This document shows, one piece after another, positions 15,845 through 43,900 of a stretch of DNA of 64,000 bases. The stretch lies in contig NZ_JAMOAO010000001.1 in NCBI RefSeq assembly GCF_030555055.1, forward strand, positions 1,364,001 through 1,428,000, read 5' to 3'. The DNA comes from Nocardiopsis sp. YSL2 (GTDB lineage Bacteria > Actinomycetota > Actinomycetes > Streptosporangiales > Streptosporangiaceae). The number at the start of each line of letters is the position of its first letter. Positions within the stretch are counted from its first letter, which is position 1. Position numbers and translations under genes: made by a program. A model generated the notes under the pieces. That model saw nothing but the letters and a program-made list of their open reading frames with translations, made no database searches and was not told where the DNA came from.

Positions 15845-16157
15845 ACCACTCTTTACCGATGTGAGACCTGGCGAACTCGGGCACCGCCCGCCCCACGGGC
15901 ACGCGAACAGCCTCCGACCACCGCGCATCAACGCAGGCCAGAGGCTTCAGTGGAGGTGGGTGACGGTGTCGATGGTGCGAACCTGATCCACCAGGAGCCG
16001 CGTGGCCCGTCCGGCACGCGACGGACGCCCTCCATCCGCAAGGCGTCACCACTGGGAAGGGCGCCTATCGCCATGGGGGCTCAGGGATGATCCCCCGAAA
16101 ACAAGAACGGACCGCCGCCGGGAGGACAGAGTCCTCGCAGCAGCGATCCGTATCTCG
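15845..16157. other. Intergenic region between the glycan operon and ssrA
   Basis: No coding signal in either direction: codon bias is absent in all frames. The part near 16157 is the 3' flank of ssrA. Nothing else recognisable. Confidence 0.5.
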
Positions 16158-16526
16158 TGGAGGTGGCGGGAATCGAACCCGCGTCCTTCAGCACCGAGCC
16201 AGGGCTTCTCCGGGCGCAGTCCGTGGTGTCGTTCTACTCGGCCCCAGCGCTTGCACGAACACATCGCTGACAGGCCCAGCCACGAAAATGTCCCACTCAG
16301 GCCCCGTGGCCTGATCTGAGCGGTAAGTCATCTAGCTGATGCCGGATCCCGAGCCGATGACGAGCCCGGACCGACAGAGACGCTATCGCTTAGGCAGCGA
16401 GAGCGAACTCAGTGCGCTTAGAATTGGCACTTGTGTTTACGCGAATGCAGGATTAACGAGGTCACAAACGCAACCCTCGGCCCGCTTCCCCTGAAACGAC
16501 TACCGAAGTCGAAACCGATCACCCCC
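16158..16526 (-). ncRNA. ssrA: Transfer-messenger RNA
   Basis: tmRNA for trans-translation. The 5' end GGGGGTGA at 16526 pairs with CACCTCC near 16159-16165 to make the acceptor stem. The tRNA-like T arm reads GGACGCGGGTTCGATTCCCG. The 5' segment contains GGTTTCGACTTCGG, universal in tmRNA. The tag frame (16437 down to the TAA at 16390) encodes NTSANSKRTEFALAA, preceded by a GTA codon, with the canonical ALAA end for ClpXP. CCA is not encoded, so it must be added. Its protein partner SmpB is encoded 2.4 kb upstream on the same strand. Exact ends are estimated within a few bases. Confidence 0.95.
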
Positions 16527-16903: not shown

Positions 16904-18901
16904 TTACGGGCCCACCGGGTCCGTAACCGCCCCTCCGGCCGCGGGATCGGTCTGACCGGGCGGGGTCTCGGGGATCGTGGGGTCCCCGGCGGGAGCCGTC
17001 TGCTCCCCCGCGATCTCACCGGTGGCCAGCGAGGTCAGGAACGCCTGGGCGCTGTTCACCGCGTGGTGCGTCACCAGGGTGGTCGCGGAGTCGGCCTCGG
17101 CCACGATGGCGAAGGCCACGTCGCCCTGGTAGCCGACGAACCAGTGCAGGTCGGTCCCGTCGCCGAGCGCGACCCGGGCGGCCTGCCCGTACACCTCCGG
17201 CTGCTGGGCGAGCAGCTCCGGCATCCGGGTGGTGACCGCATCGCGCAGCCCCTGCCGCACGACCTCCAGGTCGGCCTCGTCCAACTCCGTCTCGGGCGAC
17301 GGGGAGGGGCCCTCCTCGCGGACCAGCGTCGGCGCGTTCCACTCGCCGCCGGCGATGGTCGCGGCGGCCAACGCCATCGACAGCGGGCTCACCTGCACGC
17401 CGTCCTCCCCGACCATCGCCGAGGCGACACCGGCGTCTCCCTCGGCGACCGACACCGACCCCGCGGAGGCCTGCACCGGCAGTCGCCAGTCCGCGCCGAT
17501 GCCGAGCGACAGGGCGGCCTGCTCGACGCTGTCGGCCCCCACGTCCGGGGCCAGTCCGACGAACCCGACCGTGCAGCTGTGGGCCAGGTTGCGGGCCAGG
17601 TCCGGTCCGCCGAACTCCGGGCTCAGCGCGCCCGAGCCGGGGTTGGTGAAGTTCTGGCCGTCGATGGTGGTCTCGTAGCCGCAGGGCACCTGGTCGTCGG
17701 CACCGACCGCGTCCGACTGCAGGGCCGCCAGCGCGCCCACGATGGTGAAGGCGCCGCCCGGCACGAAGGAGCCGTTGAGCGCCGCGTCGTCGCTCGCGCT
17801 GCCCGACGCGTTGGCGGCGGCCAGGACCTCTCCGCCGGCCGTGTCCACCGCCGCCAGGTAGGCGCGGCCCGGCAGGGGCGCCAGTGCCGCCTCGGCGGCG
17901 CGCTGCACGTCGGCGTCGAGTGTGGTGTCCACACCGCCGCTGCGCTCGCCCTCCCAGGACTCCAGGACGTCGGTGATCGCACCGGACTCGTCCAGGGTGA
18001 CCACCTGGGCGGTGGCCGATCCGGCCAGCTCGCGCTGGAAGATGCTCTGCAGCCCGCTCAGGCCGACGGTGTCGCCCGCCTGGTAGGGGCCGGCGACCCG
18101 GGAGGACACCCGGTGCTCGGCCGTGCCCGCGACCTCGCCGACCAGGGACGGCGCGACCGTGGGCGACAGGTTGATCCGCACTTCCTCGGTGTCCACGCCC
18201 TGGATCCCGCCGACCTCGCTCAGCAGGGACGCGTTCACACTGGAGTCGCGCATCAGCACCAGCGGCTGGAACTGCTCGGGCGGCGCGGAGCGTACGCGGT
18301 TCAGCAGCGGCCCGGGCTCCTCATCGAGGAGTTCGGCGAGCTCGGTGACGCCCGCCTCCTTGTCGTCCATCTCGGCGGGGACCACACCGAAGGCCGTGAC
18401 GCTGTCGGCGGAGACCAGTTCCCGGCCCTCCCGGTCGAGGATCTGGCCCCGCTCGGGCTGTTCGTAGCTGACCGCGAGTCGCTCGTCGTCGCTCAGCTCG
18501 GGGTGGATGACGGCGGAGGACCAGGTGATCCGCCAGCCGTCCGGACCCCATTCGAGCGGTATCTCGCCCGTGTAGTTCCAGGTGGGGTCACCGATGCCGA
18601 GGTCGGCCGTGACGTCGAAGGCCGCCGTCGCCGACTCGCCCTCGCGTTCGATCAGGCCCAGGCCGAAGCGCAGGGAGGCGAGGTCGAGCTGCTCGCGCAC
18701 GCTCACCAGGGCCTCCTCGACCTCCGTCGGATCTCCGGTGGTGTACCGGGCGGCCTCCGCGTGGTCGCCGTCCTGCCAGGCGAGGAGGAAGGAGCGTACC
18801 GCCACCTCGGGGCTGGGGTGGGGTGTACACGCGGCCAGGGTGCCCGCGACGAGCAGGCCGCTTCCGGCGGCCAGGACGCGGCGAAGGGGACGGGGGGACA
18901 C
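16904..18901 (-). CDS. PBP-like lipoprotein with degenerate transpeptidase site
   Basis: 665-aa predicted lipoprotein (signal RRVLAAGSGLLVAGTLAAC). Domains: an NTF2-like MecA_N domain (about 30-140), a dimerisation part, then a transpeptidase fold (about 330-640), as in mycobacterial PBPlipo. The fold is clear (VPCGYETTIDGQNF, GFVGLAP, VSPLSMALAAATIAGG, HWFVGYQGDVAFAIVAE), but the catalytic motifs are gone. PGSTFK is PGGAFT (Ser to G383, Lys to T386), SxN is SCT (442-444) and KTG is QAA (from Q573). Peptidoglycan cross-linking is therefore unlikely. GTG 18901 has an AAAGGA site; an ATG at 18928 overlaps the smpB stop but lacks one. Confidence 0.85.
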   Translation of the reverse strand: MSPRPLRRVLAAGSGLLVAGTLAACTPHPSPEVAVRSFLLAWQDGDHAEAARYTTGDPTEVEEALVSVREQLDLASLRFGLGLIEREGESATAAFDVTADLGIGDPTWNYTGEIPLEWGPDGWRITWSSAVIHPELSDDERLAVSYEQPERGQILDREGRELVSADSVTAFGVVPAEMDDKEAGVTELAELLDEEPGPLLNRVRSAPPEQFQPLVLMRDSSVNASLLSEVGGIQGVDTEEVRINLSPTVAPSLVGEVAGTAEHRVSSRVAGPYQAGDTVGLSGLQSIFQRELAGSATAQVVTLDESGAITDVLESWEGERSGGVDTTLDADVQRAAEAALAPLPGRAYLAAVDTAGGEVLAAANASGSASDDAALNGSFVPGGAFTIVGALAALQSDAVGADDQVPCGYETTIDGQNFTNPGSGALSPEFGGPDLARNLAHSCTVGFVGLAPDVGADSVEQAALSLGIGADWRLPVQASAGSVSVAEGDAGVASAMVGEDGVQVSPLSMALAAATIAGGEWNAPTLVREEGPSPSPETELDEADLEVVRQGLRDAVTTRMPELLAQQPEVYGQAARVALGDGTDLHWFVGYQGDVAFAIVAEADSATTLVTHHAVNSAQAFLTSLATGEIAGEQTAPAGDPTIPETPPGQTDPAAGGAVTDPVGP

Positions 18902-18924
18902 CTTGTGTGTTCCTTTCGAGGACC

Positions 18925-19389
18925 TCATCGTCGACGGCGCAGCGCGCGTTCCATATCGCGTTTGGCCTCGCGCTCGGCGATGGCGTGGCGTTTGTCGTAC
19001 TCGCGCTTACCGCGGGCCAGGGCGATCTCGACCTTGGCACGGCCGTCACTGAAGTACAGGGACAGCGGCACCAGCGTGAAACCGGGCTCTCTGGTCTTAC
19101 CGATCAGCCGCGCGATCTCCTGGCGGTGCAGGAGTAGCTTACGCCTTCGTCGCGCGGCGTGGTTGGTCCAGGTCCCCTGGGTGTACTCGGGGATGTGCAC
19201 CTGCTCCAGCCACACCTCACCGTCGTGGACGTGCGCGAAGCCGTCCACGATCGACGCACGCCCCTCGCGGAGCGACTTCACCTCGGTGCCGGTGAGGACG
19301 ATCCCCGCCTCGTAGGTCTCGTCGATGTGGTATTCGTGCCGGGCACGCCGATTCTGCGCGATGAGCTTACGCCCGGTTTCCCGTGCCAC
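18925..19389 (-). CDS. smpB: tmRNA-binding protein SmpB
   Basis: 154-aa OB-fold protein that binds tmRNA and places it in stalled ribosomes. Features: [74 protein letters not shown] and a basic C-terminal tail ending RALRRRR that enters the mRNA channel. It lies downstream of ftsX (about 75 bases). Its stop overlaps a possible ATG of the PBP-like gene. Confidence 0.98.
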
Positions 19390-19464: not shown

Positions 19465-20376
19465 TCAGACCTTCAGGTAGCGGCGCAGGGTCAGGAACGA
19501 GGTGATGGTGCACAGCAGCACACCGAGGATCATCGAGACACCGATGACGTAGAGCAGTGATCCCGTACCGAGCGCCACGTCGAACTGGAACCAGTCCTCG
19601 ATCCTGGTGAGCAGCGTGTACCTGGTCGCCACGATGAACCCGGAGGCGATCAGACCGCCGATGAAGCCGGCGATCGCGCCCTCCAGGAGGAAGGGGAGCT
19701 GGATGTAGAAGTTCGACGCGCCCACCAGCCGCATGATGCCGGTCTCCCGCCGTCGGCTGTAGGCCGACAGGCGGATGGTGTTGCCGATCAGCAGCGCGGC
19801 GGCGGCCAGCTGCACGAGGGCGACCACCAGGGCGGCCCACTTCAGGCCGTCCAGGAGCGAGAAGAACTGTTCGAGCACGCGTTGGTCGTCGGAGACCGTG
19901 TCGACACCCGGTGCGCCGTCGACCGCGGCGCGCACGGTGTCGTAGTGGTTCGGGTCGGTGAGCTGCACCCGGTAGTTGTCCGGGATGTCACCCTCCTGCG
20001 CGGCGCCGGCGAGGGCCTCGTTGGAGGAACCGATCCGCTCCTGGAAGTCCTGCCATGCCTCGGCGGCCGTGAGGTAGCGGAAGTCCTCCACCTCGTCCAG
20101 GCCCTCCAGCGTCTGCACGAGCTGCTCGCGGTCCGCGTCGCTGGCCTCGCCGTTCTCCGTGCAGGTCGCCGTCGGAGAGATATCGGTGCACATGTAGATG
20201 GTCAGCGTGATCCGCTGGTCCCAGTAGTTGCGCATCTCGGACACCTGCTGGTTCACCAGCAGGCCCGCGCCGAACAGGGCGAGGGAGATGGCCACCGTCG
20301 TGATGACGGCGATGGTCATCGTCAGGTTTCGGCGCAGGCCGATCCACGTCTCGGAGAGAACGAATTGTGCTCGCAT
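19465..20376 (-). CDS. ftsX: Cell-division ABC permease FtsX
   Basis: 303-aa membrane protein that with FtsE transmits a cytoplasmic signal to peptidoglycan hydrolases at the septum. Architecture: helix 1 after MRAQFVLSETWIGLRRNLTM, a large extracellular domain (about 50-175) containing two cysteines (CTDISPTATC), then three C-terminal helices ending in FLTLRRYLKV. It lies 84 bases after ftsE, the conserved actinobacterial ftsE-ftsX-smpB order. Confidence 0.97.
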   Translation of the reverse strand: MRAQFVLSETWIGLRRNLTMTIAVITTVAISLALFGAGLLVNQQVSEMRNYWDQRITLTIYMCTDISPTATCTENGEASDADREQLVQTLEGLDEVEDFRYLTAAEAWQDFQERIGSSNEALAGAAQEGDIPDNYRVQLTDPNHYDTVRAAVDGAPGVDTVSDDQRVLEQFFSLLDGLKWAALVVALVQLAAAALLIGNTIRLSAYSRRRETGIMRLVGASNFYIQLPFLLEGAIAGFIGGLIASGFIVATRYTLLTRIEDWFQFDVALGTGSLLYVIGVSMILGVLLCTITSFLTLRRYLKV

Positions 20377-20460: not shown

Positions 20461-21150
20461 TCAGTACGCCTGGCCGTAGACGCCGCGTGTCTGGTCACGC
20501 ACTACGAGGCCCTCTTCCAATTCGATCACGCGCTTGCGCATCGAGTCGACGATGGCGGCATCGTGGGTCGCCATGACGACGGTGGTGCCCGTGCGGTTGA
20601 TTCGGTCCAGCACCTTCATGATGCCGATGGAGGTCGCGGGGTCGATGTTTCCGGTGGGCTCGTCCGCCAGCAGGATCTGCGGGCGGTTGACGAACGCGCG
20701 GGCGATGGCCACACGCTGCTGCTCACCACCGGAGAGCTCACCGGGCATGCGTCCGGCCTTGCCCTCCAGGCCCACCAGCTCGACGACCTCGGGAACCACC
20801 TTGCGGATGAACCGCCGGGGCTTGCCGATGACCTCCAGGGCGAAGGCCACGTTCTCGAAGACGTTCTTGTTGGGGAGCAGGCGGAAGTCCTGGAAGACGC
20901 AGCCGATCCTGCGGCGCAGGTGCGGCACCTTCCAGTTGGACAGGCGGGCCAGGTCCTTACCCGCGACGTGGACACGCCCCTTGTCGGGCTTCTCCTCCTT
21001 CAGCACCAAGCGGAGGAAGGTCGACTTTCCGGAGCCGGAGGGGCCCACGAGGAAGACGAACTCGCCCTTGTCTACGTCAATGGAAACGCCGTCGAGCGCG
21101 GGGCGCTTCTGGGTCGGGTAGACCTTCGTGACGTTATCGAAGTGGATCAC
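20461..21150 (-). CDS. ftsE: Cell-division ATP-binding protein FtsE
   Basis: 229-aa ABC ATPase. Walker [11 protein letters not shown]-loop [20 protein letters not shown], signature LSGGEQQR, Walker [10 protein letters not shown] and switch ATHD are all present. It binds FtsX and couples ATP hydrolysis to septal wall remodelling. GTG 21150 ([20 protein letters not shown]) is the best start; the frame extends 52 codons upstream without family similarity. The ribosome site is weak. Confidence 0.97.
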
Positions 21151-21495
21151 AGGCGCATCACAAGGTTCTCGAAGGTATGGGCACCCGCCTCGGAGCCGAC
21201 TCCGCGCGGGATCGTACCGGCCGCATGGCCAACCGACAGTGTAGAGGGGGGTGCGGCCCGGATTGTCCAGGTCGCGACTCGCCCGAGGATCCGGAGGATC
21301 GTGCACCGTCGGACAACAGCCCCGAGCATATCGGAGGTGTCAATCGATGGTAACGTTCACATATAGTATTTCTGGTAAAAGTGTGGAGTCACACTCATCA
21401 CCATTGGGCCACAACCTGCGCCCGTGACACAGCCGCCACACGGGGTGCGATCACTCCGACACCTGGTGTGCCCCCGCCTCGGGCCGAAGCGAAGC

Positions 21496-21631: not shown

Positions 21632-22744
21632 CTACTGCGCAGCGTCGCCGCGCTCGCGGCTGCGCATCCACCGGATCTCGGCGTCGATGAAGGCGTCGAT
21701 CTCGCCGTCCAGGACACCCGAGGTGTTGCCGGTCTCGGCGCCGGTCCGCACGTCCTTGACGCTCTGGTACGGGTGCAGCACGTAGTTGCGCATCTGCGTA
21801 CCCCAGCTGCTCACCGAGTCGCCGCGGATCTCGTCCAGCGCGGCCTGCTCCTCCTCGCGCTTGCGGGCGAGCAGCTTGGACTGGAGCATCGTCATCGCGG
21901 TCGCCTTGTTCTGCAGCTGCGAGCGCTCGTTCTGGCACGAGACCACGATGCCGGTGGGCAGGTGGGTGATGCGCACCGCGGAGTCCGTGGTGTTGACGCC
22001 CTGGCCGCCGGGACCGCTGGAGCGGTACACGTCCACGCGCAGCTCGGTCTCGTCGATCTCGATGTGGTCGCTCTGCTCCACCGAGGGCACGACGTCCACA
22101 CCCGCGAAGGAGGTCTGGCGCCGGTTCTGGTTGTCGAACGGCGAGATGCGCACCAGGCGGTGGGTGCCGTGCTCCCCGCGCAGGGTGCCGTAGGCGAAGG
22201 GCGCCTTGACCGCGAAGGAGGTGGACTTGATGCCCGCCTCCTCGGCGTAGGAGGTCTCGTAGACGTCCGTGGGGTAGCCGTGGCGCTCGGCCCAGCGCAG
22301 GTACATGCGCTGCAGCATCTGCGCCCAGTCGGCGGCGTCGACCCCGCCCGCCTGGGAGTTGATGGTGACGATCGCCTCGCGCTCGTCGTGCGGGCCGTTG
22401 AGGAGCGTGCGCACCTCCAGCTCGCCGATGTCCTTGCGGAGCTGTTCGAGCTCGCGGTCGGCCTCGTCCCGGGTGTCGCTGTCACCTTCGGCCTCGGCCA
22501 GCTCGTAGAGCACGCCGAGGTCGTCGAGGCGCTGGTCGATCCCCTCGATCTTGGTGACCATGGACTCCAGTGTGGACAGCTGCCGCGTCACCTTCTGCGC
22601 GTTGGCCTGGTCCGACCACAGCTCCGGGTCGGCCGCCTGCTCCCGCAGTTCGGCGATCTCCGTCCGCATCGCTTCCATGTCCAACACCGCGGACACACTC
22701 GCCAGGGTCGCCGCGAGTTCCTTGATCTTCTCTGCTGGGTCCAT
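21632..22744 (-). CDS. prfB: Peptide chain release factor 2
   Basis: 370-aa RF2 that reads UGA/UAA and triggers peptide release. The GGQ loop is in [18 protein letters not shown]. The N-terminal coiled coil and the central domain with [20 protein letters not shown] are typical. The reading frame is continuous, with no programmed +1 frameshift as found in E. coli prfB. ATG 22744 is 10 bases after GGGGGA; a GTG at 22753 is too close to it. It heads the leftward prfB-ftsE-ftsX-smpB block, although a 480-base gap separates it from ftsE. Confidence 0.98.
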
Positions 22745-22822
22745 GTCTGCCACGTCCCCCAGTGTAGGGGCCTGCCCGCGCCCCCGGCCCAGCTCCGTAT
22801 CCCGCCCCGCCCCGCACGGCGC

Positions 22823-22854
22823 TGTGCCCCCGGCCGGGATGGGCCGGGGGCACA
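22823..22854. terminator. 13-bp-stem terminator hairpin
   Basis: Arms TGTGCCCCCGGCC and GGCCGGGGGCACA around GGGATG, 41 bases beyond the glutamate dehydrogenase stop on its strand. No T-run. Confidence 0.7.
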
Positions 22855-22894
22855 CTGAGTCCGGTGTCGGCGGCGGGCGCCCCGACGGGTGGGC

Positions 22895-43099: not shown

Positions 43100-43900
43100 A
43101 GGACCCCCTTCATCGCGTGACCGCCGTGAAGGCGACGGCCAGGCTGGTTCTGCATCCCTCCCGCCATGGGGGACGGAAGGAGTTTCGCGCGCTAGCCCCC
43201 TTCCGCAGGCGGTCCGGTCCGGCCCGGCCCGCGACTCGCTTGGATGTGCGTATACCCATCAGAGGCAGGGTCCTCACGCGCACCATCAGCACGATTCGTG
43301 GGGCCCTGTCCCATGGGAAGCAGGACTTTTGCCGCCAACAGGACAAGTTGCCACCCGGTCATGGAACGCCACTGACCGAAGGACTCGGCGACGGGAGGAT
43401 GGATGAGGCACGACGGAGGCGCGTACGGGGAAGGCGCTGCCGGGGAACCGGCGCTCCGGCGCCCACCGCGTGCTGCCCCGTGGGACCCGCCGGTGTCGGC
43501 GGGTCCCCCAGCGATGGCATGCCACCCGTCCGGCCGACCTGGTCTTCGTCCCCACATCCGCCTGCTGAGAGTGTCGCCGCTCTTGTACGCGACTACTGCT
43601 CTTCTCCCTGTCATGAGGGACATCGGGACCCTCCGCGGGGCAGGGCTTACCTCTAAGGCGCACCGTGATCGGTCGACGAAAAGTCGCCTTACGTGGGCCG
43701 TTTCGCCTGCGCCTGGCATCGGCTTGCCGAAGTCGCTCCCCGGTATCCCCAGGGGCACAGTAACTCCGGCGCAACCACGGACCCGGACGGGTGCCATACC
43801 TGGACCGTAACCTGTCCTGGCCCTTCTGTCAGGTAGCGATCACCCCCTCCACACCCCGACAACCCCCTCAAACCCCCATGAACACTGACTTTTCACCTGT
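43100..43900. other. Long noncoding region upstream of hpf
   Basis: 800 bases without a frame showing the genome's G/C third-position bias. It presumably holds the hpf promoter(s). A clean hairpin at 43482-43507 pairs GGGACCCGCCG with CGGCGGGTCCC around GTGT. CCCCGG-TATC-CCCAGGGG-like complementarity is seen near 43740-43760. A small RNA or long hpf leader is possible. I found no match to riboswitches I know. Confidence 0.5.

Follow-up and report, generated by a model that had tools for sequence, protein, structure and literature searches.

Structural roles of class B penicillin-binding proteins (PBPs) have so far been argued from engineered mutants in a few model species. In Bacillus subtilis, division can rely on a PBP2B whose active site is dead as long as PBP3 provides the catalysis (PMC5656894), and PBP3 of C. 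difficile promotes asymmetric division without catalysis of its own (PMC12713402). PBP-lipo was linked to septation, and the M. abscessus protein requires its catalytic Ser364 (PMC9170245). The open literature gave no report of a class B PBP that is dead in nature and fixed in a whole clade; this is weak evidence, as subscription journals were mostly outside that search.

The window, i.e. the whole stretch of 64,000 nucleotides of Nocardiopsis sp. YSL2 that was analysed, carries one gene whose product is by homology and fold a MecA/PBP3-type class B PBP, and which by sequence fails every tested transpeptidase feature.

Gene, start codon and neighbourhood

The gene and its neighbours, with the basis of each assignment in brackets, were located as follows.

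16904..18901, minus strand: pseudo-transpeptidase lipoprotein CDS, GTG start, 665 aa (ORF translation, Pfam, start-element comparison)
16904-18928, minus strand: the same CDS from an alternative ATG start, 674 aa
18911..18916, minus strand: Shine-Dalgarno element AAAGGA, 9 nt before the GTG
18925..19389, minus strand: smpB, directly upstream of the pseudo-transpeptidase gene (translation)
19465..20376, minus strand: ftsX (ORF translation; synteny)
20461..21306, minus strand: ftsE (ORF extent, the true start being probably further downstream; synteny)
21632..22855, minus strand: prfB (ORF extent; named from translation)
16157..16526, minus strand: ssrA (tmRNA), directly downstream of the pseudo-transpeptidase gene

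Two starts were considered for this gene. The GTG was preferred over the in-frame ATG at 18928, which overlaps the smpB stop, because AAAGGA was present upstream of the GTG and an AAGGA element together with the same GTG was found again in 12/12 relatives checked. Residue numbers are counted from the ATG unless stated, and the numbers from the GTG are smaller by 9.

Every member of the gene order prfB-ftsE-ftsX-smpB-gene-ssrA was on the minus strand. The ftsEX-smpB neighbourhood named in a sequence-only reading of this DNA was right and could be given more specifically. The tmRNA (16157-16526, minus strand) carries the tag ANSKRTEFALAA, and the dead PBP gene was placed between smpB and ssrA. 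In addition, a raiA RNA (RF03072) was observed at 43525-43791 of the window (minus strand) with 143.9 bits, well over the gathering score.

Domains, degraded motifs and predicted fold

Three Pfam domains, a lipobox and three former catalytic motifs were revealed in the protein.

18827..18838, minus strand: lipobox LAAC, residues 31-34, with Cys34 (Cys25 from the GTG), read from the sequence
18485..18811, minus strand: MecA_N (NTF2-like) domain, residues 40-148 (Pfam), the most strongly constrained domain in the degenerate clade
17966..18460, minus strand: PBP_dimer domain, full length, residues 157-321 (Pfam), truncated in the active short paralogs
17123..17854, minus strand: degenerate transpeptidase domain, residues 359-602 (Pfam), fold predicted intact
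17744..17761, minus strand: former SxxK motif, reading P-G-G-A-F-T, with Ser changed to Gly (G392) and Lys to Thr (T395)
17570..17578, minus strand: former SxN motif, reading S-C-T (451-453), Cys452 being invariant in every row
17177..17185, minus strand: former KTG motif, reading Q-A-A (582-584) (sequence and ortholog alignment)

MecA_N, PBP_dimer and Transpeptidase followed each other in the order of MecA/PBP3-type class B PBPs, with scores of 34.6, 58.8 and 59.2 bits, each of which exceeds its curated cut-off. The LAAC lipobox, as read from the sequence, gives the protein a predicted membrane anchor, and Cys34 was conserved at at least 90% in an alignment of 70 sequences. In one deep subclade (L093, L096, L099 and L260) the lipobox Cys was missing and the N terminus resembles a plain membrane helix, so the type of anchor would have changed there with membrane attachment kept.

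AlphaFold2 gave a mean pLDDT of 88.2, and most of the transpeptidase domain reached about 95-98. The best solved matches in Foldseek were B. subtilis PBP3 (7bn9, E 1.3e-33) and then S. aureus PBP2a, which were matched along the whole length, and the match to 1vqq had a TM score of 0.64-0.67 across about 640 columns.

The SxxK, SxN and KTG features of transpeptidases all failed, both for the window protein and for its clade. The sequence-only reading had reported GxxT for SxxK, SCT for SxN and QAA for KTG, all of which were confirmed; its G383/T386 are correct from the GTG and correspond to G392/T395 from the ATG. Neither the SxxK Lys (0/121) nor KTG (0/121) was present in the smpB-linked Streptosporangiales ortholog rows, while the SxxK Ser survived in 11/121 and the SxN Asn in 16/121. 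Among these rows one genus is represented by many species and one locus appears a few times over, so they do not stand for independent events. All motifs were intact in 41/41 full-dimer PBP rows outside the clade and in 23/23 short paralogs (64/64), a contrast far greater than chance would give, and eight further PF00905 matches in the window's genome carry all three. The remaining PF00905 match (G000:C1:4060638-4061225, L083) was a lipoprotein-like 324-aa ORF resembling class D beta-lactamase. We infer the loss of activity itself from the missing catalytic residues; judged by these residues, acylation of the protein through the known mechanism is impossible.

Orthologs with intact motifs, which the earlier reading took as the sign of decay or of a sequencing error, were sought in the genus and the family, and none with the catalytic Lys or KTG was found, which argues against both a sequencing error and recent decay. 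Sequencing error and local or recent decay were ruled out, with the same losses in all orthologs and a dN/dS of 0.22. In one GTDB genome scan the degenerate form occurred in Nocardiopsis, Streptomonospora, Thermobifida, Marinactinospora, Actinomadura, Actinoallomurus, Nonomuraea, Microbispora, Planotetraspora, Sphaerisporangium, Spongiactinospora and others. The closest named relative was Nocardiopsis sp. NRRL B-16309, with 90% identity. For Nocardiopsis sp. CNR-923 (L242:4501-6494) the N-terminal part was out of frame, which could be a frameshift or an assembly error.

The old pocket might have been given a new chemistry, in which Ser/Thr at the old Lys position, or the invariant Cys452, would serve as new nucleophile. 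Residue 395 was Thr or Ser in 102/121 rows and Cys452 did not vary, which is what this proposal has in its favour, but residue 395 alternates between Thr and Gly inside one genus, the active enzymes keep Cys452 and Cys416 just as strictly, a structural role being more probable for both, and no conserved general base or oxyanion element was present, making the proposal highly improbable. A re-used active site as a chemistry shared by the clade was rejected, as the pocket columns vary freely. In the dead as well as the active proteins, Cys416 and Cys452 varied little or not at all, and a structural Cys416-Cys452 disulfide beside the old SxN loop is suggested.

Retention, single loss and the shift of constraint

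The ortholog was present in 150/151 genomes of the family sample and 200/201 of the order sample, the two samples overlapping and the latter being dominated by the window's family. The sole order genome without the gene (G114) was not accepted as a true loss, its contig ending 195 bp past smpB. Comparison with three close relatives, at a dS of about 0.23, gave a dN/dS of 0.22-0.23 for the whole gene in each pair; by domain, the values were 0.09-0.16 (NTF2), 0.10-0.23 (dimerisation) and 0.22-0.28 (transpeptidase). The values of ftsX (0.21-0.27) and of the transpeptidase part of the active paralog (0.24) were in a similar range. The protein therefore has the sequence hallmarks of a pseudoenzyme, i.e. 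catalytic residues gone in the lineage and a gene under purifying selection. That a pseudoenzyme is kept here, as first proposed from the letters of the DNA, is supported by dN/dS, by the near-universal presence across the sampled genera and by the fold prediction.

Slow decay would be another way to read the lost motifs: the catalytic domain would be dispensable, and the gene either leaving or kept through its position between smpB and ssrA. The former catalytic columns vary freely and the copy of Nocardiopsis sp. CNR-923 seems frameshifted near the N terminus, both in agreement with decay, but retention across almost all genera with open frames, a dN/dS of about 0.22 in each of the three close comparisons and structural residues invariant at 34-89% identity make it very unlikely.

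A maximum-likelihood tree of 132 rows was built with the motif columns removed (quick search, SH-aLRT support, no bootstrap). All 78 degenerate rows in the tree were on one side of a branch with SH-aLRT 100, and the sister of this clade was the intact copy of family f3 from the same order (support 90). This intact copy occupies the same ftsE-ftsX-smpB locus, and likewise those of families f9, f37 and f20; smpB was directly upstream on the same strand in 119/119 degenerate rows. Since the degenerate rows form one clade and its sister is intact at the same locus, the simplest account is a single loss of catalysis ahead of the family's radiation. By this account the smpB-linked PBP was ancestrally active and lost catalysis in the ancestor of the window's family and family f2. 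The same account places the loss near the base of Streptosporangiales, as represented by the window's family together with the nearest relative sampled.

After the loss, constraint was found in other places of the protein. The columns that do not vary in active enzymes fell into two groups. The structural columns G391, F394, C416, C452, G476, G507, P515, A519, G528, P533 and W596 were fixed or nearly fixed, and structural residues were invariant across 34-89% identity in the 70-sequence alignment. The catalytic columns 392, 395, 453, 508, 582-584 and 587 turned variable, several of them above the domain average, with an entropy of 2.9 bits at residue 392 and 3.3 bits at residue 587.

In long intact proteins the transpeptidase domain was more conserved than the NTF2 domain in 665/666 pairs, and in the degenerate clade it was ahead in only 437/2278 pairs; pair counts of this kind share species and are hence not independent, but their direction is uniform. 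In ten species with both genes, the NTF2 domain of the dead protein was better conserved than its transpeptidase domain in 45/45 species pairs, and in the active short paralog the transpeptidase domain was the better conserved in 44/45 (NTF2 ahead in 1/45). The latter comparison came from pairwise alignments, and a joint alignment gives the same result. With the gradient inverted and the old active site drifting, the working part of the dead protein is likely the N-terminal half.

An N-terminal working part could also be a ligand sensor, which would bind peptidoglycan, lipid II or a beta-lactam non-covalently in the NTF2-like pocket or a PBP2a-like allosteric groove, and signal to synthases or FtsX. 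In its favour, the NTF2-like domain was the most constrained one, the best fold matches included structures of PBP2a, in some of which the allosteric site contains a peptidoglycan analogue, and for Campylobacter Pgp2 an accessory pocket in the NTF2 domain is reported to bind peptidoglycan (PMC8038945). The former substrate groove was not conserved, however, and a sensor is regarded as rather unlikely.

Active short paralogs, possible role and comparison with known systems

A short MecA_N PBP with all motifs intact was identified elsewhere in most of these genomes, including that of the window:

C1:6020662-6022302 (locus L047): short MecA_N class B PBP of the window genome, motifs intact, not smpB-linked

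The short paralogs match only positions 114-178 of the 180 positions of PBP_dimer, and in the dead protein the match extends over 3-178. A full-length short active paralog was present in 58/71 sampled genomes and not seen in the other 13/71, several of which are fragmented or incomplete; strict co-occurrence with the dead PBP was thus not upheld. The sister family f3 has a long intact copy and no such short copy. In family f19 the short active form was present and no long copy was detected at the threshold used, so the short active form needs no dead partner. The pattern is compatible with catalysis having passed to the short form, without proving that both proteins work jointly. In several family genomes a further short MecA_N-type PBP was also observed at a distance of 15-30 kb from the gene of the dead PBP and in most cases on the other strand (e.g. 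G068:C1:469982, G122:C13:196015 and G064:C3:24616 (L289, L290)), with several matches per genome.

These paralogs gave a hint of a pedestal partner, with the dead copy lending its full dimerisation domain to a heterocomplex with the short active form. The short paralogs lack the first two thirds of PBP_dimer, which is nearly complete in the dead protein, both proteins co-occur in most of the 71 genomes (the full-length short form in 58), and the sister family has the long intact copy only. Family f19, however, has the short form and yielded no long copy at the threshold used, and 13/71 genomes were without the full-length short form, which leaves such a heterocomplex distinctly unlikely.

The protein is thus probably best explained as a lineage-fixed, membrane-anchored MecA/PBP3-type pseudoenzyme, which acts through its N-terminal modules and serves wall synthesis as an adaptor or regulator without catalysis. 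It would stand on the membrane in the service of peptidoglycan synthesis, and the NTF2-like domain and the pedestal would bind a wall-synthesis or divisome partner, or nascent peptidoglycan. Cross-linking would be carried out by active PBPs, and the inert transpeptidase domain may be left as a structural arm. FtsX is a candidate partner because of the long-conserved ftsEX linkage, although this linkage may be a mere old operon, since operons persist for other reasons. That the protein may scaffold or regulate wall synthesis was already proposed by the sequence-only reading; it is still a proposal, and it was strengthened by the inverted constraint and by the catalysis-independent PBPs of B. 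subtilis and C. difficile (PMC5656894, PMC12713402). A non-catalytic role would not be simply inherited, since the catalytic Ser is required in the related PBP-lipo of M. abscessus (PMC9170245).

On a wider scale, a natural, order-level class of non-catalytic 'PBPs' is quite possible, though put forward tentatively, in which the NTF2-like domain and pedestal form an FtsEX-coupled regulator and cross-linking is done by short PBPs. If true, this class would be the natural counterpart of laboratory-made dead PBPs that still support division. A clade which keeps the protein and discards the chemistry offers an independent evolutionary test of PBP functions other than cross-linking, and directs attention to the N-terminal modules. 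Across the whole order, antibiotic producers and Thermobifida fusca included, this gene is probably misnamed when it is called a 'penicillin-binding protein'. The thermophilic proteins of T. fusca are well suited to structural work; no T. fusca proteome paper was found in the literature search.

Compared with the short MecA_N PBP of the same genome (L047), the dead protein shares MecA_N and the transpeptidase domain, whereas L047 has all motifs and lacks the first two thirds of PBP_dimer and the smpB linkage. With class B PBPs of the MecA/PBP2a/PBP3 types it shares the domain order and a fold match along the whole length; unlike them, it has no SxxK Lys and no KTG, in most rows of its clade no Ser or Asn, and an NTF2 domain more conserved than the catalytic domain. 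Like mycobacterial PBP-lipo (Rv2864c / MAB_3167c), it is an actinobacterial class B PBP and a predicted lipoprotein, but the M. abscessus protein depends on catalytic Ser364. The precedent for a class B PBP with a catalysis-independent role in division comes from B. subtilis PBP2B and C. difficile SpoVD/PBP3, which are natural enzymes inactivated in the laboratory, whereas here the dead form is natural and clade-wide.
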